From Cyanobacteria bacterium FACHB-502 (lineage in GTDB: Bacteria; Cyanobacteriota; Cyanobacteriia; Elainellales; Elainellaceae), in the NCBI GenBank assembly GCA_014695325.1, contig JACJNZ010000071.1, positions 1 through 64,000 on the forward strand: 64,000 nt of DNA, read 5' to 3'. Shown here one piece after another: positions 26,245 through 38,330 of this stretch. Within the stretch, counting starts at the first letter, position 1, and every line of letters starts with the position of its first letter. The position numbers were made by a program, and so were the translations under genes. A model generated the notes under the pieces. The model ran no database searches and had not been told where the DNA came from. It was given only the letters and a program-made list of their open reading frames with translations.

Positions 26245-26334
26245 ATTGATTCGGAATTTATTGATTCGGAATTTATTGATTTGGAATTTATTGACTTGAA
26301 ATTAATTGATTCCGAATTAATTAATTTGAATCTC
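26245..26334. repeat. 15-bp tandem repeat, six units, running into the devB 3' end
   Basis: ATTGATTCGGAATTT and variants are repeated six times with an exact 15-bp period from 26245. Units 1-3 are nearly identical and units 4-6 more diverged. The array crosses the devB stop codon (26317-26319), so the last units encode the C-terminal residues LEIQIN. The flanking bases 26222-26244 look like a further degenerate unit. Confidence 0.9.
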
Positions 26335-27480
26335 AAGTCGCACCTGCATATTCGTCAAAGCCGCAACTTTTGCGTTATCGCTTGCATTAATCCGAACTTT
26401 TACTTCTACCACTCGCGTATCCTGATCGCTGGTTGGGTCATTGCTATCTTCAGAAAGTTTGCGTTTACCGACCTGTAGCCCGACCTGCTCGACCACGCCC
26501 TGAAGCTTGCCCTCAAATCCGCCATATTCACTCGCGATCGTCACCTTTTGTCCGGGCTTAACTTTTGCCATATCCGTCTCATACACTTCGGCAATCGCAT
26601 ACATCTGGTCAGTTCGTCCCAGTTCCACAATGCCCTGCTGCGTATTCACCTGTTCACCCACACGGGTATTAATTCGGAGTACCTGACCTGCGATCGGGGC
26701 TTTCACCTGGGTATCCTCTAACTCAGCGCGACGCTGTTCCACCGCAATCATCGCTTTTTCCAGATCGGCTTGTGCCACCCGCAGATCAACAGGGCGAACT
26801 TCGCTCAACTTTGCCAGATTTTCTCGCTCTTGCCGGATTTGCTGCGTCAGGGTTTCGATCGTCATTTGGCGTTCTGCCTGTCGCTGTCTCAGGGTTGCCT
26901 GCGCTGTTTCTAGTTCCTGTCTTGCCTGATCCAGATCAGACGCTTTAAGTGCGCCTTCCTGCTGCAAATAAACGTTGCGATCGTAAGTAGTCTGTGCCTG
27001 CCGCAAAACCGCTTCTGCACTGGCGATGGCAGCCTCCTGACCGACGACTTCGTTTTTGAGCTGTGCTTCTAAGCGGGCAATCGTAGCTTGTTGTGCAGCG
27101 ACATCGGCATTTTTGGCTTCTCCTGCCTGGGTTTGCGCCAGTCTTGCCCGATAGTATTCCACGTTCTTTTCGGCTTCTTCCAGGTCACGCTGTTTGCGAT
27201 CGGCTCCTTGAAGAATCGCAATTACCTGTCCGGCTTTTACCCAGTCGCCTTCTTCTACCAAAATTTGATTCACACGACTATCTGCTGCATTCGTCACCGA
27301 CAGCTTCATCACTTCGCCCTGAGGAGCTAATCGCCCGATCGCCACCACAGAAGTAATCGGCTGAACGCTTGGAGCAGGCTGGGGCTGTGCCTGGGAAGAG
27401 TTAGAAATCGCAGAACAGGCAGTATTGCCGCTCAGGAGCAGTAGAAGCACAAAAGGAAACCATTTGAGTCTGGACTGCAT
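26317..27480 (-). CDS. devB: DevB-type membrane fusion protein (HlyD family)
   Basis: A 387-residue periplasmic adaptor from the ATG at 27480. The N-terminus WFPFVLLLLLSGNTAC looks like a lipoprotein signal with Cys near residue 21. It is followed by a lipoyl half-motif (VNQILVEEGDWVKAGQVIAIL), a long coiled-coil hairpin (about residues 100-250, Gln/Glu/Ala-rich) and the second lipoyl and beta-barrel parts (IAGQVLRINTRVGEQV). It links the DevC/DevA inner-membrane complex to an outer-membrane TolC-type channel. It is the first gene of the exporter set, and its last codons lie in a tandem repeat. Confidence 0.88.
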   Translation of the reverse strand: MQSRLKWFPFVLLLLLSGNTACSAISNSSQAQPQPAPSVQPITSVVAIGRLAPQGEVMKLSVTNAADSRVNQILVEEGDWVKAGQVIAILQGADRKQRDLEEAEKNVEYYRARLAQTQAGEAKNADVAAQQATIARLEAQLKNEVVGQEAAIASAEAVLRQAQTTYDRNVYLQQEGALKASDLDQARQELETAQATLRQRQAERQMTIETLTQQIRQERENLAKLSEVRPVDLRVAQADLEKAMIAVEQRRAELEDTQVKAPIAGQVLRINTRVGEQVNTQQGIVELGRTDQMYAIAEVYETDMAKVKPGQKVTIASEYGGFEGKLQGVVEQVGLQVGKRKLSEDSNDPTSDQDTRVVEVKVRINASDNAKVAALTNMQVRLEIQIN

Positions 27481-27764
27481 AGGAAGGGGAGGGTTTAGAT
27501 GATCTGGGCATGAATCGAGAATCAGGCACGATCGCATAGGGATACCGCTTCCAGAAACCCAACTCCGAAAACTGAGAAACTTCTTAACGATAAGGATGAA
27601 GGTTAGCGAAAGACTAAAGGAAGGCAGGATGAATCAATACTTCACTTAAAGCATAGCGTCAAAGCCTACCTGCAAAGCGTGATCCATCCCACGATCGATA
27701 ATGTCTGTATTCAGCATAAAAAACTGAGCTTCGTCTGACTTCTAACAAGCGTTAGAAACTGGTT

Positions 27765-30461
27765 TTACAAGCCATTGCCGATGAGAATAAACGATGCCCA
27801 GTAGTAGGGATGCTCTAGCGTTACAGGCTGATTTTCGCTGTCCACGAGATGTTCGAGACGAGTTCTAGTTGCTCCCTGAATCAGGGCAATTTGTGCCTGC
27901 TGAAGTGCGGCAGTTTTAGAGAGATTGCCCGATCGTAGTGCGGTATAAAATCGGCTCATCAGTGCCTCCGTCCCGCCGTCATCCACTGCCCACAAAGAGG
28001 CGATCGCGGCTCTGGCTCCGGTTGCCTGAATTTGATAGCCAAATCCCAAAATCTCTTTGCCGTCTTGAAGCTGCATCGAGCTCACAGCAGTCTGACAGCT
28101 ACTCAGCACGACGAGATCAACATTGTCCAGATCCAGGCTGCTGACATCGCGCATCGTGATCGTGCTGCCGTCCCCAAACAAAATAAATGAATCTTCTGGT
28201 GATCCAGTCGTGAACATCGCGTGAGTAGCAAGATGAACGATGTTGTAATCATTTAAGATTGGCTCAGTGGCAGCGCGGGTGAATTCCCGATCGATTAACT
28301 GGCGCGTGTTGGGATACAAACGGGCGATCGTCTCCACTTCCGGTTTGGCAAAGGGTAGCCCGCCAAAGGGTAAAACGGTGCCGCCGCGCGGGATGTTGTA
28401 GCGTCCTTCGGAAAACGCGCCTGCTAAGACACGGGGCTGGGTTCGCGGTTGGGAATCAAGATTAAACAAACTTACCGCCGTGACATAGTTCACCTGAAAT
28501 CGCTCGGTGATCCACTGATCTCCGTCATAAAGCGTGCCAAGCGGAATATAGCGCAACTGCCCATCGGGAGCATAGATAATGGTTTTGATATTGCCCTGTG
28601 CGAGAACTTCCTCGATCGGCTTAATCAGCCAGTTATAGAGCCGCTGTGCGTTAGGTTTCGGATCGGAGTTTTGATCTGTTAAGTCACTGAGCAGGGCAGA
28701 AATCGCCCGATTTAGCTCCACTCGCCCAACCGGAACCGAATAACGCATGGGCGCAGTATGGCGAGACAGCACCACCAGTTCAAGGCGATCGTCCAGCACC
28801 AGCGGATAAAGCAAAACCGCATCCTGCTGAATGTCATTGCGAATTGCCCTGATTGCTCTGAGATCAATTTCCTGATCGATCTGGACTTCGAGCTGTTCGA
28901 TCGCCGCTACAATCTCAGGCTGCTCTAGAAAATCTTGAAACGCCAGGGTAATTTGACGTTGCCGACCACGGAGTTCTTCGACGCGCTGCTGCTGCTCAGG
29001 AGTTCGCTGCTCGGATGGAATGTCGTCTAGTTCATCAAGCTCTTTGCCTAATTCGATCGCCCCTTGAATCAGCTCATCATACTGCTCTGAAATCTGCCGC
29101 TCTGCCGGAAGAATATCCACGCCCTCAGCCGTCTGCTCGCTGCCCCTCACTCCTCGCCGCAAATAGTCCTGAATTTCCTGCACTTTCAGCAAATCTAAAA
29201 CCTGCTGCGCTTCTAAAATGCGATTTTGCTGCAATAACAAATCCGCTAATCTCCGATAAGTATCCGCAACGGTATCGGTGTAAGACTGCTGTTGCTCGAT
29301 CGGCAATCCGGTAATATCTCGCCGAATGGCTTCGGTGACGTTGATCGATCGTTTGTAGAAAAGAATGGCGAGTTGGGGTTGGTTTTGCTGCGCGAGGAGA
29401 TCGCCAAGATTGCTTAAAACGCTTCGTTGCCCTGGAAGTGACCCAGTTTCTATTGCAATAGATAATGCTTGCTGATAGAACGCTTGCGCTTTTTCAAACT
29501 CATTTGAGCTTGAATAAACTGTACCTAAACGGTTGAGAGTATCAATTGTGTTATCGCGATCGCCTATTTCTTCCGAAAGCTTAAGTGCCTGTTCTAAAGT
29601 GAATAAAGCCTCTTCTCTTCGTCCTACTGTATAGTAGACAAACCCCAAATTACTAAGAACTTCTGCCTCATGAGAAGGTTGCTGAGCTTCTCGCCTTAGT
29701 AAAAGAGCTTGCTGGTAGCTTTCAATTGCTTTTGAATACTGATTTAGTCTTTCGTATATAAAACCAATATTGTACAGAACTATACTTGCACTTGATTGTT
29801 GATTGTGTTTATCCCCTTGAGTAACAGTAGGAAGCTGCTGAATAATTCCTAAAACTTCTCGAAACGCCGTTAACGCTTGCTCAAATTGACCTAAATCTGT
29901 ATAAACCCAGGCTAGATTACTAAGAACCTGTTGCTCTCCGAGTAAATCTCCCAGTGATCGAACAATATCTAGTGCCTGTTGTTGAGCTGAAACTGCTTGA
30001 GTAAATTGTCCCTGATCAGCATAAATGGTTCCTAAATTTGACAAGATACGCCATTCTCCCTCGGAGCTATTAATACTCCGCGAAATTGTTAAGGTTTGCT
30101 CGTATGTCTCTATAGCTTGCTCGTAATTACCCTCTTGCTGATAAACAGCAGCAATGTTGTAAAGACAGTATTGTTGACCAACATTATCTTCGAGTTCTCG
30201 ATAAATGTTTAATGATTGAATGAAAGCATTCAGTGCGAGGTCGTAATATCCTTGAATATAGTAGATTCTGCCCTTTTCAAAAATCTGCTTGGCTTTGTTT
30301 TGTTGATTCTGGAATAAAAAGGGTTTTATTTCTAAAAAATGTTCTATCGATTGAGCTTCCTCTTGTTGAAGAGGTTGAAGTGAATTAGCCTTAGTGTGAT
30401 TGCAACATAATAGTATTCCTACACAAGCAAAAAGGTAGAATCTTGAACGTTGAAAAAACAT
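27765..30461 (-). CDS. Exported TPR-CHAT domain protein (caspase-like protease fold)
   Basis: A protein of about 898 residues. An N-terminal hydrophobic stretch (FYLFACVGILLCCNHTKA) looks like a signal peptide, possibly of lipoprotein type. Eight tetratricopeptide repeats follow (about 45-385), then a helical linker, then a CHAT domain at about 590-898. The catalytic pair is visible as His747 in VHLATHA and Cys789 in LSSCQTA. CHAT is a caspase-clan fold, and TPR-CHAT proteins are abundant in filamentous cyanobacteria. The gene is mosaic: the TPR part upstream of about 29440 is much more AT-rich than the CHAT part. It is the last gene of the accessory block; substrates are unknown. The TTG at 30467 is an alternative start. 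Confidence 0.9.
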   Translation of the reverse strand: MFFQRSRFYLFACVGILLCCNHTKANSLQPLQQEEAQSIEHFLEIKPFLFQNQQNKAKQIFEKGRIYYIQGYYDLALNAFIQSLNIYRELEDNVGQQYCLYNIAAVYQQEGNYEQAIETYEQTLTISRSINSSEGEWRILSNLGTIYADQGQFTQAVSAQQQALDIVRSLGDLLGEQQVLSNLAWVYTDLGQFEQALTAFREVLGIIQQLPTVTQGDKHNQQSSASIVLYNIGFIYERLNQYSKAIESYQQALLLRREAQQPSHEAEVLSNLGFVYYTVGRREEALFTLEQALKLSEEIGDRDNTIDTLNRLGTVYSSSNEFEKAQAFYQQALSIAIETGSLPGQRSVLSNLGDLLAQQNQPQLAILFYKRSINVTEAIRRDITGLPIEQQQSYTDTVADTYRRLADLLLQQNRILEAQQVLDLLKVQEIQDYLRRGVRGSEQTAEGVDILPAERQISEQYDELIQGAIELGKELDELDDIPSEQRTPEQQQRVEELRGRQRQITLAFQDFLEQPEIVAAIEQLEVQIDQEIDLRAIRAIRNDIQQDAVLLYPLVLDDRLELVVLSRHTAPMRYSVPVGRVELNRAISALLSDLTDQNSDPKPNAQRLYNWLIKPIEEVLAQGNIKTIIYAPDGQLRYIPLGTLYDGDQWITERFQVNYVTAVSLFNLDSQPRTQPRVLAGAFSEGRYNIPRGGTVLPFGGLPFAKPEVETIARLYPNTRQLIDREFTRAATEPILNDYNIVHLATHAMFTTGSPEDSFILFGDGSTITMRDVSSLDLDNVDLVVLSSCQTAVSSMQLQDGKEILGFGYQIQATGARAAIASLWAVDDGGTEALMSRFYTALRSGNLSKTAALQQAQIALIQGATRTRLEHLVDSENQPVTLEHPYYWASFILIGNGL

Positions 30462-30631
30462 TATCAAAACACTCCATGTTTTCCCTGCGAAAAATTAATA
30501 TTATTGTATGGTGAAAAAGTTTAATTATTAAAAATTTGTAGAGCGAATGCTCTGCGTATTAGTAGTTAACATCCGCTCTACGTCTTACTCTATTTACCCA
30601 CTTAGTTTTATTTAGGGCAACTATTAATAAT

Positions 30632-30967
30632 CTACTTCTTTGGCGGAAATTCAGGAATAATTCCTTGCTCTTGAACTCCCAAAACCTTAAATTTTACTAG
30701 TCTATTTATTGTGTCTTTAACCCATGTTAAAACTTCTTGCAGCTTTTTGAAAGAAGTTTCTTCTGTTTCTGGGTTTTTAGAGTTGCACAAATTGAAAAAA
30801 AAGTCTCTAGTTGCCTTGCCTACTTCATCGGAAAACTTTTTCAACTCATCTAGTGCTACTTCAGCATCAAGAGGTTTACTGTAAGCTTTTTGCTTCAATT
30901 TCTTGTAGAGTTTTTCAGTCTCTGCATAAAGTTGATTGACAATGTCATTTACATTTTCGTAATTCAT
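30632..30967 (-). CDS. Small AT-rich hypothetical helical protein
   Basis: A 111-residue protein with a good RBS (AAGGAAA, 5 bp before the ATG at 30967). It is Lys/Glu-rich and predicted to be almost all helix, with no signal peptide or membrane segment. It is not recognised. Base composition is clearly more AT-rich than the surrounding genes, like the 5' half of the CHAT gene downstream. It lies between the exported TPR protein and the CHAT protein, 154 and 170 bp from each, so it may belong to the same transcript. Confidence 0.75.
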   Translation of the reverse strand: MNYENVNDIVNQLYAETEKLYKKLKQKAYSKPLDAEVALDELKKFSDEVGKATRDFFFNLCNSKNPETEETSFKKLQEVLTWVKDTINRLVKFKVLGVQEQGIIPEFPPKK

Positions 30968-31121
30968 GGATTTTCCTTGGTCTAGAACAGCAACAATTGG
31001 AAACTACCCCAACATCGATCGCCCATTCACCAATACATTTGGAAACTCGATCGCTAAAATCGACCCGTCTCCAATATTTTTTAGTGAGCGATCGTCATAG
31101 ATTTACCTTCGTCTGCGCTCA

Positions 31122-32027
31122 TTATCCGGCTTGAGTTGAAAGATCGGTGAGTTTTTGCTGTAATTCTTCAACCTTTGCCTGGTTTCCTAACGTTTGGTAG
31201 CTTTCTTTTGCCTGTGTTAGCCATTCGATCGCCTGCGGTCTCAATTCCAGCCGGATATAAACTTCGCCAAGCGATGCCTGAAGTCGGGCTTGCTCCGGCA
31301 GATTTCCAGAGGCGAGGGGAATTGCTTGCTGATAGTAGGATTCGGCTCGCAAATTAACGTTTGCTTGAGCGTAGAGGTCTGCCAGTTTGCGATAGACGAT
31401 CGGGTTTTGGCTGCCTTGCTCGATTAGAGATTCGAGGGTGTCGATCGCCGCCGCGTAGAGTTCGGAGCCGATGTAGAGATCGGTTTTAAGCAGCGTTGTG
31501 GATTCGGAGGTGTTATTAAACAGGGATTCTGCCTGGCGGATGCGATCGGCTTCAGGGTCAGACAGGCGGTAGAAGGTGGTCTGGATGTCTTCTTCGGTGG
31601 AGGAGCGATCGGTGTTGGTTTTCACCTCTAGCGTGTAGTTGATTCCGGGTTGCAGGGCAGGAGCATCCGATGGATAGGCGATCGCATCCGTCTCGACCTG
31701 TTTTGTCCATAGGATTGTGTCTCCGTTTTTCAGCGTTACCGTGTACTGGGTTACGCCCAACACTTTATTCCAGCGTAGATTGGGACGATCGCTTAAAACC
31801 GCCGAATTGCGAGGCTCAATGATGTAGGGAATCAAGGCATCTTCGGGACCGCGCGGATTGGCAGTGCGAGCAGTGCGACACTGGGCGATGAGATATTCTG
31901 CAGTCGATTCGATCGGAGGTGAGACGGGGTTGAGTTCCCGCACCGCAGAGATTCCTGGACTCGTTGCCGTTGGAATCACTAACAGCAAGCCTGCAATTCC
32001 AGCACCCTGAATAAAACGATCGTTCAT
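31122..32027 (-). CDS. Exported TPR-containing protein
   Basis: A 301-residue protein. The start has a hydrophobic helix (about 8-28) that may be a signal peptide. Residues 65-145 form a beta-rich, fibronectin-like segment (RPNLRWNKVLGVTQYTVTL) seen in cyanobacterial exported proteins. The C-terminal half has TPR-like repeats (about 180-300). It begins 11 bp after the kinase gene, so the two are almost surely co-transcribed. Function unknown; the context suggests a periplasmic sensor or scaffold for the signalling block. Confidence 0.75.
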   Translation of the reverse strand: MNDRFIQGAGIAGLLLVIPTATSPGISAVRELNPVSPPIESTAEYLIAQCRTARTANPRGPEDALIPYIIEPRNSAVLSDRPNLRWNKVLGVTQYTVTLKNGDTILWTKQVETDAIAYPSDAPALQPGINYTLEVKTNTDRSSTEEDIQTTFYRLSDPEADRIRQAESLFNNTSESTTLLKTDLYIGSELYAAAIDTLESLIEQGSQNPIVYRKLADLYAQANVNLRAESYYQQAIPLASGNLPEQARLQASLGEVYIRLELRPQAIEWLTQAKESYQTLGNQAKVEELQQKLTDLSTQAG

Positions 32028-32038
32028 GGCTGTTTAAC

Positions 32039-33625
32039 TCACTCTAAAAACTGTTGAGCGTGCGTCATCCATTGTTGTTCGTCGGAATTTTTTCGATCGC
32101 CATATTGAAGACATTTGCGATAGGCATTCACCGTGTTTGGTATATCTTTAATTTCTTCATAAACTTGCCCCATTAAGCAATAGGCTGTCCCTCGTTTATC
32201 GTCAATCTTAACTGCATTTTTCAACGCTTCTTGGGCAACGTCATATTGCTTAAGCTTAAGCTGTGCCCAGCCCAAATTTTTTAGAAGCGCATAGTGATCG
32301 ATCGGTCTTTTTGCAATGTGCCGACCTTCATTCAATAGTAGAATGGCACGATGATATTCCTGATTCAAAATATATAGTCTTGCTAAATTGTTGTAAGCAT
32401 CTGGTCGCTGTTCTGTATCAAGGTCTTCAATCATGGATTGGGCATAAGCAGCTCTCGCTTGAGCAAGCTTGTTTTGCGTTTCATACAGATCGCCCAAGTT
32501 AAACAATGTTGCAGCATTTTGTCGATTGAATAACAGCGCAAACTGATAAGACAACCAGGCAAGCTCAGGGGCATTTGCAGTTTGGGCATCAAGTCCCCAA
32601 TCATTGAACTGAATCGAAACTGTGAGTCGATTTTGCCAGAGGGTGAAACCACCAGACAGAACCGCCACCAGCAGCGCAGTTTTGAGCGGAGTGAGTTGCA
32701 ACAGGCGACGATCGAGCTTTGCACGCAGGCGATCGACCTGGCGCAGCACAGGCAGCCGTCGTTCCCAGTTGAGTTTTCGTTCGATTTGTCGAATGGTTTG
32801 CAGGATGATTTCGCCTGACTGCGGACGCTGCCCCGGAAAGGGAGCCATGAGACGATCGAGCAAATCTGCAAATTGGGGCGGCAGGGCATCGGTGAGAGTG
32901 CGCCACTGGAGTTGTCCGGTCTGGGGATCAACGGGGAGATCGATCGGCGGTTTGCGTGTCAGTAACGTGACCAGGGTTCGTCCGAGCGCGAAGAAATCGG
33001 ACTGGGGAACTGCCTGCCCTTCTGCCTGTTCTGGGGGCGTATATCCAGCGGAAATAATGGCGGTTCCGGTTTCCTGCTGTTCCTGCTTCACTAAGTAGGT
33101 GACAGATACCTCGCGCACAGTGCCAAAATCGATCAGCATCAGCTGACCATCCGGACGCAGCATAATGTTTGATGGTTTAATGTCGCGATGGAAAAACTGC
33201 TGCTGATGCAGAGGAATCAAGATCTCGACTAACTGATGCAGCCAGTCGATCGCTTCTCGCGCTGAAAGCCGTTTTCCCTGCTGGAGCCATTCCTGCAAAT
33301 TGATGCCCGGAACTTTTTCCATCACCAGACAGTGCAGGGGGGCAAGCCGATCGCGCTGCCAGACAAAGTAGCCATCTGGTTCAACCTGGGGCACACCGCG
33401 ATGGTGAAACTGGCTCAGAAAAGTGGCTTCCCGTCGAAATAGCTCGATCGCTTTTTGCTGCTGTGAACGCGAAAACTCTTTGAGGTCAAGAACTTTCAGC
33501 ACCTTCGTCGCATCCCCGTCCCGGATTTCAAACACTTGACTAAAGCCACCGCCACCCAGAGGTCGGATAATCTCGTAGCGGTGATGCAGCAGGGTTCCGG
33601 GAGCTAGCACGATCAGGGCGCTCAT
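32039..33625 (-). CDS. Serine/threonine protein kinase with C-terminal TPRs
   Basis: A 528-residue Hanks-type kinase. The kinase domain (about 12-270) has a Gly-rich loop GGGGFSQVFE, catalytic FHRDIKPSN near 147 and MLIDFGTVRE near 162. A hydrophobic helix at about 310-328 (TALLVAVLSGGFTLW) may anchor it in the membrane. TPR repeats fill about 355-525. The start overlaps the stop of the STAND gene by four bases (ATGA), indicating translational coupling. It probably signals for the STAND/CHAT block; its targets are unknown. Confidence 0.93.
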   Translation of the reverse strand: MSALIVLAPGTLLHHRYEIIRPLGGGGFSQVFEIRDGDATKVLKVLDLKEFSRSQQQKAIELFRREATFLSQFHHRGVPQVEPDGYFVWQRDRLAPLHCLVMEKVPGINLQEWLQQGKRLSAREAIDWLHQLVEILIPLHQQQFFHRDIKPSNIMLRPDGQLMLIDFGTVREVSVTYLVKQEQQETGTAIISAGYTPPEQAEGQAVPQSDFFALGRTLVTLLTRKPPIDLPVDPQTGQLQWRTLTDALPPQFADLLDRLMAPFPGQRPQSGEIILQTIRQIERKLNWERRLPVLRQVDRLRAKLDRRLLQLTPLKTALLVAVLSGGFTLWQNRLTVSIQFNDWGLDAQTANAPELAWLSYQFALLFNRQNAATLFNLGDLYETQNKLAQARAAYAQSMIEDLDTEQRPDAYNNLARLYILNQEYHRAILLLNEGRHIAKRPIDHYALLKNLGWAQLKLKQYDVAQEALKNAVKIDDKRGTAYCLMGQVYEEIKDIPNTVNAYRKCLQYGDRKNSDEQQWMTHAQQFLE

Positions 33626-35415
33626 GACGCTTGCGATGGGTTGATCAATTCCAACAGCTTGGTCAGGTTAATTTCCGCATAGCCGATCGCTTCAGGCGGT
33701 TGGTCTTTGAGCCATCCTAAAATCTGTTGTAGCTGGTCGGATAACTGTTCCACATCCCCCGCGAAGGTACTCACCAGCCGATCGCGAACTCGATAGAGAA
33801 TGCGGCGAACGTGATACAGGGTGATGGAAAAGGTTTCTTCATCTTTTAGCAGCAGATGGGTTTTGAGAATGCCTAAGTGAGAAATCGAGCGGGCTTCGAT
33901 GACTGTTTCAACGTCCTGCCACAGCGCATCGACCAACTGATGCAGCACGCATTTCATTACAACGGGTTCGAGAGAGAAGAGGGTGGGTAAAGGGGTAGAG
34001 GAGTGAAGGGGAACGGTTGCAGGACAATTACTCTCCGGCAGGAGTCGTTTTGTGTCGGTGTTTTTTTCGATCAGGGAGCGTCGCCAGAGGGAGCCGAGGG
34101 CGGTGAGCAGGTGCGATCGTTCTTCGGTGCTCATTAAGAGTTTGAGGTCGGCGATCGCGGTGGGTTTTCCAACGATGGCAAGCCAGAACATCACGTTTCT
34201 TTCGGCATCAGACAATTTGGAGAGCTGCTGTTCGAGCAGGTTAGATAATACGTCGCCTAGAACGAGCGAAGTCTGCGCCAGAAATTGGGACACTTGCCCA
34301 TCACAAATGTCTTGAATCAACGCGCCGATCAGTTTCAGGGCTGCAGGGTTACCACGATAAATGCTGACCAGTTCCGATAAGCCTGCTTCCTGTCCAGCGA
34401 AGCCGCGTGTGTTGAGTAGAGTTTTGGCATCGGCAGGTTGCAAGCCGCGCAGTTTGAGGCTTTGAACGACGGGTTCTCCGGCAAATGCAGCAAGCTCGAT
34501 CGGCTGTTCGCGGCTGAGGACAACCAGACAACTTTGATGCTGCTCTGCTGCAAATCGTTGCAATAAGCGGCTATAGCCCCGATATTGAATGGCACAGTAG
34601 CCTGACAGTTCGCCTTCCTGCAACAGCGTTTCCCAGTCATCCAGCACAATTAGAAACCGTCGCTGTCGTAGCTCAGAAAGTAGATGGGAGATTTGCTGAT
34701 CGATCGTGCTAGTGATCGTCAGTTCGGTTGAGTCGGTGACAAACTGCCGGATGTCCTGAACCAGCTCGCCGATCGGGGGTGCATCCCGCAGCGATCGCCA
34801 CAGAACCCCTTCAACGCCAGCTTTTTCGAGCGAGGCATCGCTGAAACTATCTTGAATTAATTTTGCAACCAGACTGGTTTTGCCAATGCCGCCCATGCCA
34901 ACGATCGCCGCAACTCGCACTGTGAAATCGGTCAGCCAGGCGTGCAGCGTTGCCTGTTCAGCCGATCGCCCGTAAAAGCGCGAAACATCGATATAGGCAG
35001 CTAGATCTTGCCGCGGCGCAGATTTAGTCGGTACAGCAGACAGAGTCACTGCGTTCAAGCGATAGCCCGATCGCTCCAAAATAAACGCGATTTGCTGCCA
35101 GTTTTTAGGACGCTGCTCGGTCAGCACTTCCAAATAGTCATAAAGTCCATCCCGGGACAGGCTGACTCGTAACCCGGTGACATCTCGATTCAGGCGCAGC
35201 GCAATTTCAGTCGGGCTATGACCACAGAGCAATCCGCGCAGGCAGTCTTTCTCTAGCTCGGTGAGTGCGCTGTTTTGCTTGCCGTTACAAGCCCGTTTTA
35301 CAACAGTCAGATCCGCATAGAGCCGAGGTAAATCCCACTGTTGCGCTGCTTCTGCATAGATGTCGTCGGGCATGGTCGAAACACAGGGAAGTGAATTTAT
35401 TTTTGCAGCATTCAT
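33622..35415 (-). CDS. STAND (NB-ARC) ATPase with vMAP-type N-terminal HTH
   Basis: A protein of about 597 residues from the ATG at 35415; alternatives are 35373 (ATG) and 35487 (TTG). The N-terminal segment LRGLLCGHSPTEIALRLNR is the helix-turn-helix domain found at the start of cyanobacterial vWA-MoxR-associated (vMAP) STAND proteins. The NTPase has Walker A GMGGIGKTSLVAKL and Walker B FLIVLDDWETLL. A winged-helix region follows. The protein stops at TKLLELINPSQAS, just where homologues normally continue into WD40 or pentapeptide sensor repeats, so it lacks a sensor domain. A pyrimidine-rich tract (33962-34020) inserts a Ser/Thr/Pro stretch. It overlaps the kinase gene by four bases. Confidence 0.88.
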   Translation of the reverse strand: MNAAKINSLPCVSTMPDDIYAEAAQQWDLPRLYADLTVVKRACNGKQNSALTELEKDCLRGLLCGHSPTEIALRLNRDVTGLRVSLSRDGLYDYLEVLTEQRPKNWQQIAFILERSGYRLNAVTLSAVPTKSAPRQDLAAYIDVSRFYGRSAEQATLHAWLTDFTVRVAAIVGMGGIGKTSLVAKLIQDSFSDASLEKAGVEGVLWRSLRDAPPIGELVQDIRQFVTDSTELTITSTIDQQISHLLSELRQRRFLIVLDDWETLLQEGELSGYCAIQYRGYSRLLQRFAAEQHQSCLVVLSREQPIELAAFAGEPVVQSLKLRGLQPADAKTLLNTRGFAGQEAGLSELVSIYRGNPAALKLIGALIQDICDGQVSQFLAQTSLVLGDVLSNLLEQQLSKLSDAERNVMFWLAIVGKPTAIADLKLLMSTEERSHLLTALGSLWRRSLIEKNTDTKRLLPESNCPATVPLHSSTPLPTLFSLEPVVMKCVLHQLVDALWQDVETVIEARSISHLGILKTHLLLKDEETFSITLYHVRRILYRVRDRLVSTFAGDVEQLSDQLQQILGWLKDQPPEAIGYAEINLTKLLELINPSQAS

Positions 35416-35674
35416 CGGGATTTCAGGAGCGTTCAGGGGTGCATTGTCATAAATAAAAACGAATTGCATCAAAACCAAGCGAATCAAACGAAAAGATTCA
35501 GCTCACGTTCGCGTAATGGGCAACGTTCAACTTGATTGATTTGTAGTGTAGAAGCTTCGATCGCCCAATGTCACCTAACAGGACTGATAACTCATTCCTA
35601 ATGGCCGTTAGGAGATTTCCAACCCAAGGGTTTCTATGTTGAATACATGGTCCACTTGTCCTGGAGGCATCACC

Positions 35675-35890
35675 ATGTTAGGTTCCCTTTCGACCAAGCT
35701 GTTCAGCCTCACCGTTCTTATCCTGCTTGGCAGCACGCTCATCGGCAACAGCAAAGCTGCACTTAGGTTAGAACCTTCCGTTTCTCCTCAAGTCACACAG
35801 CCCACTGTTCTGCCTTCTGCCACTCCTGAGCTGAGCGATCATCATAACTCCTGCAATGCCTATCCCTATCAACAGTGCCTTACTCCATGA
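35675..35890 (+). CDS. Small exported Cys-containing protein
   Basis: A 71-residue protein with GGAGG 7 bp before the ATG at 35675; the frame is open from 35636. A signal peptide is clear (LFSLTVLILLGSTLIGNSKA, about residues 9-28). The mature part is Pro/Ser/Thr-rich and ends with two Cys in HNSCNAYPYQQCLTP. It is not recognised. It is divergent from the STAND gene, about 260 bp away, which may be chance. Confidence 0.65.
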   Translation: MLGSLSTKLFSLTVLILLGSTLIGNSKAALRLEPSVSPQVTQPTVLPSATPELSDHHNSCNAYPYQQCLTP

Positions 35891-36020
35891 GGCGATCGGA
35901 TTTGTCTCCTGCTTAATTCTTCTAAAGGGTGTTTGAGCAGCCTTGCTTGCGACGCGAAGCGCCTCCCTAATTCCCACGTTAAGACCGATTCTTCCCAGCC
36001 CCCGGAACGTCCCTCATCTT

Positions 36021-36518
36021 ATGGTTTCTGCTCATCAGGCTTGGTCTGAATCTTTTCAGACATTTGTTCAGCGTGTTCGATCGCTCGAAATCAGCTCGCT
36101 AGTTTATCAACTCAATCATTCCCCAATAAGTGCGAATTGGACGGAGAAAGAGATGAGGAAGACGATCGCCCAATATTTTGCTTTTCTATATTTGGTTGAT
36201 CACTATCCAAATCTCGCCTTAGTGCCTACTCAGAATATTGATCACGTTTGGCAGTGCCATATTCTCGATACTGAAAAATACGCGATAGACTGTCAAATTC
36301 TTTTTAACCGTTTTATTCATCGTTTCTCTTTTTTAGAGTTCAGCCATGAAGACGATCGCAATCAGTTTTCACAGGGCAAGCGGCAGAATAACCTTGCAGC
36401 TTCCGTCCTGACTCAGGTACTCTTTCGCAAGCATTTTGGCTGCACGATGCAGCAATCCTCTACAGTATCCGTCGAGGATCAATTATCTAGCTCTGCCTGG
36501 ATCGGCATACCGCACTAA
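36021..36518 (+). CDS. Glycine-rich-domain-like (GRDP-type) protein
   Basis: A 165-residue protein from the ATG at 36021; an upstream in-frame TTG at 35943 falls in repeat-like sequence. The motif NIDHVWQCHILDTEKYAIDC (about residues 74-93) matches the conserved core of glycine-rich domain-containing proteins, normally DxxWHxHxLDTxxYxxDC, where His replaces this Gln. Function is unknown in bacteria. It is predicted soluble and helical, and no operon partner is evident. Confidence 0.65.
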   Translation: MVSAHQAWSESFQTFVQRVRSLEISSLVYQLNHSPISANWTEKEMRKTIAQYFAFLYLVDHYPNLALVPTQNIDHVWQCHILDTEKYAIDCQILFNRFIHRFSFLEFSHEDDRNQFSQGKRQNNLAASVLTQVLFRKHFGCTMQQSSTVSVEDQLSSSAWIGIPH

Positions 36519-36553
36519 ACTGGCTCCGGTGCAGGGTTCAAATTTCAGCCCAA

Positions 36554-37132
36554 TTAATTTTCATCATGCCAAAGCCGCTCTAGCTGATATCGCCATGCGC
36601 CTAAAACCTGGCTCCGCGCTGCACCGCCCAAATCAATATCGCCCATGACTCCTTCTTCGTAAAGGTGATCGAGGGTTTGCATCGTGGCTTCGAGGGACTG
36701 TCCCTGCTGTTTTGCCGCCCGAATAATCTGCCGAATCTGCGCCTCTGCCAATCGACTAAAACTTTCAGAAAGTCCCTGCTGCTGGAGCGCAATTAGCCGA
36801 GACACCGCCGATCGAAAATCAGAGCGGGTCAATCCCTCGCAGCTATGCTGAAACACACCCCACAGCAACTCTTGAAACAGGGCATAGCGGGTTTCCTGCG
36901 TTTCATCAAAATTCGCTTCCATCAACTGAGGCAAAAAAGGAGCTGCTTCTTGAGCCGGGGCGATCGTCACCAGCAGCCGCAGCCAAGACTGATCCTCAGA
37001 CAACAGTACCAGCAGCCGCATCTCATTCGTTTCCACCTGCCACGTCTCCACCGAAGTCTGCTGCACCCCCTCGCCAAACAAATTCGTCAGCTCATCCCCA
37101 ATCTCTTGTGGCGTCATAACCAACCTCACCAT
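36554..37132 (-). CDS. Conserved hypothetical protein
   Basis: A 192-residue soluble protein (ATG at 37132 or 37117). The N-terminal half looks alpha-beta (VETWQVETNEMRLLVLLSED), the C-terminal half helical and ending RYQLERLWHDEN. No domain is recognised with confidence. Codon use and GATCG content match neighbouring housekeeping genes. It converges with the preceding gene, ending 36 bp from its stop, and is divergent from the pentapeptide gene. Confidence 0.75.
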   Translation of the reverse strand: MVRLVMTPQEIGDELTNLFGEGVQQTSVETWQVETNEMRLLVLLSEDQSWLRLLVTIAPAQEAAPFLPQLMEANFDETQETRYALFQELLWGVFQHSCEGLTRSDFRSAVSRLIALQQQGLSESFSRLAEAQIRQIIRAAKQQGQSLEATMQTLDHLYEEGVMGDIDLGGAARSQVLGAWRYQLERLWHDEN

Positions 37133-37310
37133 TGCACTACTCCCATCCTAATCCCCCACCCCCATCTCCCCATCTCCCCATCGCCCTACTCGTTCCCCCT
37201 ATGTAACAACAAGCTGCGATTCCCTAAGACTCTTATCCAACTCCCCCAGAAACCGATCGCCGCGTGATACCCCAGAAAGAGGACGACGCAAGGTAGGACG
37301 ATTTTCATTG

Positions 37311-38330
37311 ATGGATGTTTTAGAATTTGCTGCCCAATACGCTGCTGGAGAGCGTAACTTTGCGGGCATTAATTTAGCCGGGGCGAATCTAGGCGGAATG
37401 GATCTGAGCGGAGCAAACCTGACCCAGGCAGTCCTGTCTTCGACCCAGTTCGATCGCGCGAATCTGGCTCAGGTCAATCTGAGTGGGGCGTATTTGTATG
37501 GCGCAACGGTGCAGTATGCCCGCTTAACCAGTGCAAATTTAGTCGGCGCAGATTTCACTAAGGCAAACTTGAGTGGCGCAAATCTAGCGAAAGCAAATCT
37601 CACCCGAGCCCGATTTAGCGGCGCAATTTTGAAGGGTGTGAATCTGCGGCAGGCAAACCTGAGCGGGGTTAACTTTTGTGGCGCAAACTTGAGTGGGATT
37701 AATTTGCGATCGGCAAACCTGACCGAGGCCAATTTGCAGTGGGCAAACTTGAGCGGGGCAAGGCTGAGCGGCGCAATTCTCACCAATGCCAAGCTCGACA
37801 ACGTGCGACTGAGCCAGGCATATCTTAACGGTGTTGATTTGCACGGAGTTGATTTAGATGGCGTAGACCTGAGCAATTCCAAGCTGAACGGCACGAATTT
37901 AAGCGGCGCAAATTTAACGGTGGCGAATCTCGACGATGTGTGTCTGCGTTGGGCAAACCTGAGCGGGGCAAATCTTCATGCAGCATCGCTAAACGGCGCA
38001 GCACTGGATCACGCAAATCTAGAATCTGCCAATCTGAACCAGTGCGACCTGATGGAGGCAACGCTGCACCATGCCAATTTGAACCGGGCAAACCTGAACG
38101 GCGCGAAGCTATACGGTGCAAATTTGAGCAGTGTAAATCTCACGAATGCTTCTCTTTGGGCAGCAAAGCTCGATCGTGCCGTTTTGCAGGATGCGAATTT
38201 ATCGGGTGCGAATTTGCAGGGGGCAAGTCTTCGACAAACGGATTTGAGCCGAATTCGCTGTAGTTTGCAAACCCAGTTTCCAGAGATGAATTTGCCTCCT
38301 TGTGACGATCGTTCACTAAGCTATGCCTGA
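37311..38330 (+). CDS. Pentapeptide-repeat protein
   Basis: A 339-residue protein built almost wholly of A(N/D)LxX pentapeptides from about residue 15 to 325, for example NLSGANLTQA and NLTRARFSGA. Such proteins fold as a right-handed quadrilateral beta helix. They are common in cyanobacteria, and some mimic DNA or bind gyrase, but most have no known role. It begins with a short helical lead (MDVLEFAAQYAAGERNF). There is no signal peptide, so it is probably cytoplasmic. Confidence 0.95.
   Translation: MDVLEFAAQYAAGERNFAGINLAGANLGGMDLSGANLTQAVLSSTQFDRANLAQVNLSGAYLYGATVQYARLTSANLVGADFTKANLSGANLAKANLTRARFSGAILKGVNLRQANLSGVNFCGANLSGINLRSANLTEANLQWANLSGARLSGAILTNAKLDNVRLSQAYLNGVDLHGVDLDGVDLSNSKLNGTNLSGANLTVANLDDVCLRWANLSGANLHAASLNGAALDHANLESANLNQCDLMEATLHHANLNRANLNGAKLYGANLSSVNLTNASLWAAKLDRAVLQDANLSGANLQGASLRQTDLSRIRCSLQTQFPEMNLPPCDDRSLSYA

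Follow-up and report, generated by a model that had tools for sequence, protein, structure and literature searches.

A conserved STAND NTPase, kinase, TPR and CHAT gene block in a cyanobacterium, and its possible role as an envelope-spanning receptor unit

We analysed a 64,000-nucleotide stretch (the window) of contig JACJNZ010000071.1 from Cyanobacteria bacterium FACHB-502, in which a block of five minus-strand genes occupies positions 27765-35415. In the direction of transcription the block encodes a STAND NTPase, a Ser/Thr kinase, a predicted exported Fn3-TPR protein (D928), a small open reading frame (ORF), ORF111, and a predicted exported TPR-CHAT protein, with intergenic distances of -4 (the overlap of the first two genes), 11, 154 and 170 bases. 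A preliminary description of this DNA, made from the sequence alone, had placed five same-strand genes side by side here, among them a kinase that overlaps the ATPase gene and carries TPRs, a small AT-rich ORF and two probably exported members. All of this was recovered: the ORFs are present at those positions, Pfam detects Pkinase and TPR in the overlapping gene, the GC content of ORF111 is 0.336 versus 0.513 for the window, and D928 and the CHAT protein both begin with signal-peptide-like sequences according to a simple home-made rule. We read the block as an envelope-spanning receptor unit that conveys signals from the outside in, and our confidence in this reading is evenly balanced. More tentatively, the block could represent an undescribed family of cyanobacterial envelope receptors, in which the part outside the cytoplasm stays constant (the exported CHAT, the Fn3-TPR adaptor, the TPR tail and often a secreted two-partner-secretion (TPS) protein), with interchangeable cytoplasmic domains and a kinase version that is obligately coupled to STAND.

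All five genes recur, with their order unchanged, in two further genomes, G003 (another genus; locus L039) and G026 (the same genus; L040), and the order is therefore beyond chance. The STAND orthologues in L039 and L040 are 52% and 54% identical to that of the window, and the CHAT orthologues 57% and 52%. In G026 a Uma2-family gene (L040 6202-6756, PF05685 3e-33) stands between D928 and the small ORF. A scan of 36 genomes of the order revealed a near-full-length STAND protein of this kind only in G000, G003 and G026, whereas all 36 have some NB-ARC match. G017 displays a partial STAND match at a contig start (L041 98-2376, STAND and a shortened kinase), followed by what by eye is a urease-like gene; the block is broken in this genome, and we regard L041 as a decayed or rearranged copy.

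Beyond the order, the window D928 protein matches 29 of 292 genomes of the phylum at E 1e-6. In addition to the window we examined 81 neighbourhoods, which comprise L039 and L040, 20 of the 37 rows of the phylum search, and 40 and then 19 of the 114 rows of a search of class genomes in which five candidates per genome were scored. Neighbourhoods were picked by score and by length of contig, and several genomes are represented more than once. Among the last 19, some were picked because the match ended as in the kinase-type ones, and none was picked by STAND. Genes were labelled with home-made profiles at fixed E-value limits, with spot checks by Pfam. Scattered homologues, which the preliminary description had named as evidence against its proposal, were not what we found: homologues of the block lie in conserved neighbourhoods across cyanobacteria. 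In 67 of the 81 the gene directly before D928 encodes a membrane protein that shares the TPR tail, and it is the front attached to this tail that is exchanged: a kinase in 21, a helical/transmembrane region in 40 and a CHAT-like region in 6. A CHASE2 receptor fills the slot in 6 further neighbourhoods and a separate tail ORF in one (L216). In 7 no slot gene was seen; four of these lie at contig ends (L082, L185, L233 and L239) and three do not (L087, L088 and L207). The helical front (L077 1252-2526, L078 7749-9053 and 38 similar genes) gave no significant Pfam match outside the TPRs in the four proteins scanned (L077, L078, L084, L089).

The STAND gene follows the kinase version. Among the first 62 neighbourhoods, all 9 kinase-type ones have STAND at a distance of no more than 6.5 kb, versus 1 of 53 others, and in the third batch, with the profiles frozen, the counts are 12 of 12 versus 0 of 7. 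Over all batches STAND is near 21 of 21 and 1 of 60, the latter including the 7 neighbourhoods without a visible slot gene. After removal of L039, L040 and the five loci from which the STAND profile was built, 14 of 14 versus 1 of 60 remain (Fisher 3e-14, a value that is indicative only, since related genomes overstate the evidence). Of the 21 loci, 16 have STAND upstream and in the orientation of the kinase, 4 have it divergently upstream, and in one (L076) it lies beyond CHAT. Because of this near-exclusive pairing, STAND and kinase appear to form one unit. Moreover, pairwise distances of STAND, kinase, D928 and CHAT (last 330 amino acids (aa)) agree across 10 kinase-type loci (r 0.76-0.89), which fits inheritance of the genes together. 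CHAT is also a frequent companion: an exported-type CHAT gene lies near D928 in 65 of the 81. The first 62 contribute 51 of these (at most 8 kb away, either strand counted) and the last 19 contribute 14. The background is 11 CHAT places in the 6.6 Mb of the window genome, or about 0.03 per 16 kb in this genome.

The kinase gene carries a clear Hanks-type domain (Pkinase, E 4.2e-31, 108.7 bits), and the HRDxKPxN and DFG motifs are kept in it as well as in 10 of 10 kinase-type proteins inspected. Cyanobacterial kinases are among the subjects of PMC2176072. Between the kinase domain and the TPR tail we predict a single weak membrane span (about aa 306-330), with six lysines and arginines before it and one after; among 10 kinase-type proteins the charge is higher before the span in 9, with one tie. 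Since the kinase domain needs cytoplasmic ATP, the tail should lie outside. The tail is also specific and not a generic TPR: the motif K[ND][LR]GW occurs in 37 of 51 membrane proteins with the tail versus 1 of 214 other ORFs, and in none of 48 CHAT and 62 D928 proteins.

Export is likewise predicted for the partners. Signal-peptide-like starts were found in 47 of 62 D928 proteins and 38 of 48 CHAT proteins, in 52 of 214 other ORFs, and in none of 12 STAND and 51 membrane proteins. The window CHAT protein displays strong matches to PF12770 (E 1.3e-62, 212.3 bits) and TPR_12 (E 1.6e-59), and the His and Cys motifs of the CHAT peptidase dyad (HLATHA, LSSCQTA) are intact in it. Among relatives the Cys motif is present in 48 of 48, and the His motif in 45 of 48 by a loose pattern and 16 by a strict one. 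In 11 of the first 62 neighbourhoods CHAT and a TPS secretion domain form a single fused protein (Pfam-checked in L085), and for this reason CHAT is probably extracytoplasmic. TPS genes also lie alongside in most kinase-type relatives, with a TPS and/or ShlB gene in 16 of the 19 kinase-type neighbourhoods outside the window's order.

In the model of D928 (pLDDT 82.5) the N-terminus is disordered and a beta sandwich and then TPRs follow, TPR families being detected in the sequence below Pfam cut-offs only, and the D928 profile matches FN3 chains by sequence (best 1.3e-6). The best two-domain fold match of the model is the C-terminal domain of MtxA from magnetotactic bacteria (Foldseek E 2.8e-5; versus 4z29_B, Z 14.2, root-mean-square deviation 2.8 over 160 aligned residues, model 66-240, 12% identity), and the model shows the same layout of an Ig/Fn3 sandwich followed by TPRs; 4z29 is not among the best 60 of the 93 matches of the D928 profile. 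MtxA, as described in PMC4439547, has a predicted signal peptide, and the next gene is similar to CHASE2 and adenylate cyclase. Like D928 it would be an exported Ig-like and TPR protein whose gene adjoins that of a membrane receptor, in this case a CHASE2-cyclase; it differs insofar that neither CHAT nor a Ser/Thr kinase nor STAND is mentioned as a partner in the relevant parts of PMC4439547. An additional N-terminal beta-rich region is present in long D928 relatives, for which FecR was considered and dropped (Pfam FecR in 0 of 6 at E<=1). We also considered D928 as a member of Pfam DUF928 (PF06051) and rejected the assignment, the match being below the cut-off (19.5 bits versus 26); a profile comparison is weak (probability 27%, E 6.6e-4) and leaves room for a distant kinship.

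From these observations a mechanism can be sketched. The exported TPR-CHAT protease and D928 would sense or process some envelope or cell-surface event, D928 would dock by TPR contacts onto the TPR tail of the membrane kinase, and the kinase would convey the signal inward, where the STAND NTPase, an ATP-dependent oligomeric switch, would work with the kinase as cytoplasmic output. We favor the outside-in direction because the outside parts are constant and the cytoplasmic domains exchangeable, because CHASE2 receptors fill the slot of the membrane protein, and because the D928 fold matches MtxA. A transmembrane signalling cascade ending in the CHAT protease had been proposed in the preliminary description. 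Our results support two elements of this, the grouping of the genes and a set that, by prediction, crosses the membrane; that the cascade ends in CHAT finds no support, given that the cytoplasmic domain is the exchanged part, that CHASE2 fills the slot, and that, of the 20 kinase-type loci with a CHAT gene, 16 have it on the opposite strand, convergently. Consequently, if a single transcript does end in CHAT here, this would be a local peculiarity.

Several observations weigh against the receptor reading, including the orientation of CHAT just described. A 23-sequence D928 profile matches only 72 of 388 genomes of the cyanobacterial class (1e-12), CHAT was unseen in 16 of the 81 stretches (some cut by contig ends), and the agreement of the distances could arise from shared descent alone. 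The membrane span is weak in the kinases of the window, L039 and L040 (best 17-mer 1.61, 1.54 and 1.38) and was missed in all three by a 19-residue scan with a threshold of 1.5; helical fronts (21 of 35 for, 6 against) and CHAT-like fronts (3 of 6 for, none against) follow the charge rule less clearly. With our home-made profiles, the TPS and ShlB genes of the relatives are missing in the window. The mtxA deletion mutant had no phenotype in the assays described in PMC4439547.

Signals could also run in the opposite direction. Most STAND proteins act in the cytoplasm as sensors or switches, and one that senses a cytoplasmic cue could drive the kinase and, through the TPR tail and D928, activate the exported CHAT protein, which would then cut envelope proteins or kill the cell. 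The tie between STAND and the kinase version fits such a scheme, as do the mostly intact CHAT motifs. A C-terminal repeat sensor is usual, though not universal, in STAND NTPases, and the Pfam matches of the window protein include none; its C-terminal 145 aa match nothing at E<=5. Together with the exchange of the cytoplasmic domain, the CHASE2 receptors in the same slot and the opposite strand of CHAT in most kinase-type loci, this makes an inside-out direction unlikely in our view. A different possibility is that two units without shared function merely adjoin, a STAND-kinase-D928 operon and an ORF111-CHAT operon. The first three genes are likely one operon, given the 4-base overlap and the 11-base gap, and the longer gaps on either side of ORF111, the weak terminator- and promoter-like pair before CHAT and the convergent CHAT of most kinase-type loci would all agree with a division. 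CHAT may have its own promoter, but such sites are no commoner than in shuffled sequence. The small ORF and CHAT are separated by 8 bases in L040 (170 and 175 in the other two genomes), and the frequency of CHAT near D928 is far above its background in the window genome; we consider two unrelated units quite improbable.

It could further be hypothesized that the block serves conflict or self-nonself recognition, with the exported CHAT as a toxin delivered to neighbours and ORF111 as a fast-evolving immunity protein. TPS-CHAT fusions in relatives are compatible with delivery, and the small, AT-rich ORF111 has diverged as an immunity protein might, being 32% and 15% identical to its two counterparts versus 52-57% for the other four genes. 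The kinase, moreover, scores very high with the PADLOC PD-T4-6 kinase models (best 2e-99, aa 12-285); this is a kinase-domain match only, and we rejected it as evidence of defence. CHAT is conserved and not polymorphic among the three genomes, Pfam finds no TPS domain in the window CHAT, and ORF111 has neither a hydrophobic signal nor a convincing relative in the 292 genomes of the phylum. A toxin-immunity system would also need neither a kinase nor a STAND protein, and we find this explanation very doubtful.

ORF111 itself is best regarded as a fast-diverging companion recognised in three genomes only. GC content of the gene is 0.34, 0.37 and 0.40 in these genomes (third-position GC 0.26-0.31). 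The three small ORFs are homologous: whichever two copies are used to build a profile, the remaining copy is the top match among all ORFs of its locus (93, 114 or 430 ORFs; E 5e-4, 1e-7, 4e-6). A single-sequence search of the order matched 2 of 36 genomes, its own copy and G003 at 4.3e-4. The three-sequence profile gave matches in 50 genomes of the phylum at E<=0.1, the best after its own copy (7.8e-5) lying inside a 442-aa frame, and we take these further matches as chance, which is unproven. The Pfam search gave only a uteroglobin match below cut-off. The model (pLDDT 82.2) displays three long helices, and a PDB fold search with it found nothing better than E 0.5. If the receptor reading is correct, ORF111 would be a cytoplasmic accessory particular to this lineage, which might inhibit CHAT or the cytoplasmic side or act as an adaptor for either.

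The STAND protein was identified by its NB-ARC domain (PF00931 E 3.7e-13, 49.8 bits versus a cut-off of 23.5). The label "vMAP-type HTH" (helix-turn-helix) given to it in the preliminary description was not retained, as its N-terminal 166 aa match no Pfam family at E<=5; a helix-turn-helix is nevertheless probable in this region, and a GerE-type one is found at the N-terminus of two related STAND proteins (L092, L093). Assignment of the block to the VMAP systems was rejected: no vWA, MoxR ATPase or VMAP match is present among the listed Pfam matches of nine proteins in 26317-37132 (for CHAT, 25 of 30 listed). The VMAP ternary and related NTP-dependent conflict systems, as portrayed in PMC7159879, resemble the block in combining an NTPase switch with kinase or peptidase modules in multicellular bacteria; the block differs in its predicted exported members and in lacking those three matches. 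PADLOC matches of STAND (2.6e-4) and D928 (7.6e-4) are weak. A contig search with the STAND protein revealed distant relatives at two loci of metagenome-assembled genomes (31%), where no D928, kinase or CHAT matches were found in the stretch examined.

Comparison with other clusters suggests a general layout in which a receptor is combined with an exported adaptor and an exported CHAT protein, and in some cases with TPS. The window genome contains three further CHAT clusters (L097-L099) with CHASE2 receptors, two with a histidine-kinase ATPase domain and one with CHAT, and with Pfam DUF928 proteins; a TPS gene is confirmed by Pfam in L097 and L099, and ShlB in L099. Across 20 DUF928 neighbourhoods CHASE2 was found in 13 and CHAT in 6, and no STAND genes are listed. 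PMC8195603 characterises CHASE2 as a receptor domain outside the cell, and PMC5587647 notes DUF928 beside CHASE2 in Nostoc; further background is provided by PMC10907252. Since these clusters share the same parts (membrane receptor, exported adaptor, exported TPR-CHAT), the layout appears to be general. They differ from the block in having a CHASE2 receptor with a histidine-kinase ATPase or CHAT domain, and an adaptor, DUF928, that is not clearly related to D928; the window would represent the version with kinase and STAND, in which TPS is absent and ORF111 is added. HetF of Anabaena, according to PMC8406250, resembles the CHAT-like membrane version in its CHAT front (aa 1-555), one predicted span and TPR, whereas the membrane protein of the window is a kinase. 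Membership of the CHAT-like versions in HetF was rejected: three of four matched the HetF model in the CHAT region only, at 22-29 bits versus a cut-off of 1200, and the fourth was unmatched; the model has no match in the window kinase.

No description of this arrangement was found in the open-licence literature, as judged by titles and the starts of abstracts. Bacterial STAND (NLR-like) switches, receptor kinases and caspase-like proteases have mostly been viewed as cytoplasmic or as separate systems. If our reading holds, an NLR-like switch would be coupled to a receptor kinase that crosses the membrane, and a caspase-like protease would act outside the cell. The block would thereby offer a testable route from a surface event to an NTPase switch in cyanobacteria, and a context for exported CHAT proteins and orphan Ig-TPR proteins such as MtxA.

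Table 1. Positions of the block genes and of one intergenic signal in the window.
Feature	Position	Strand	Remarks
STAND NTPase	33622-35415	-	ATG start; in-frame TTG at 35487; N-terminal region, NB-ARC, C-terminal region
Ser/Thr kinase with TPR tail	32039-33625	-	4-base overlap with STAND; kinase aa 17-273
D928, predicted exported TPR adaptor	31122-32027	-	predicted signal peptide, disordered linker, Ig/Fn3 sandwich about 66-155, TPR 157-300
ORF111	30632-30967	-	111 aa, AT-rich, three predicted helices, without signal peptide
TPR-CHAT protein, predicted exported	27765-30461	-	in-frame TTG at 30467; signal-peptide-like N-terminus
Terminator-like stem, then promoter-like hexamers	30553-30540, then 30531-30503	-	between ORF111 and CHAT; consensus scan, weak

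Divergently upstream of STAND, the plus strand encodes a small exported-looking peptide (35636-35890) and a 191-aa protein (35943-36518). The family of the latter is found upstream of the block in all three five-gene genomes, and it matches 16 of the 36 genomes of the order and is thus not tied to the block; in G013 this family and another STAND match are only about 1 kb apart. Further along the same strand (37308-38330) the translation reveals, by eye, a long pentapeptide-repeat-like protein.

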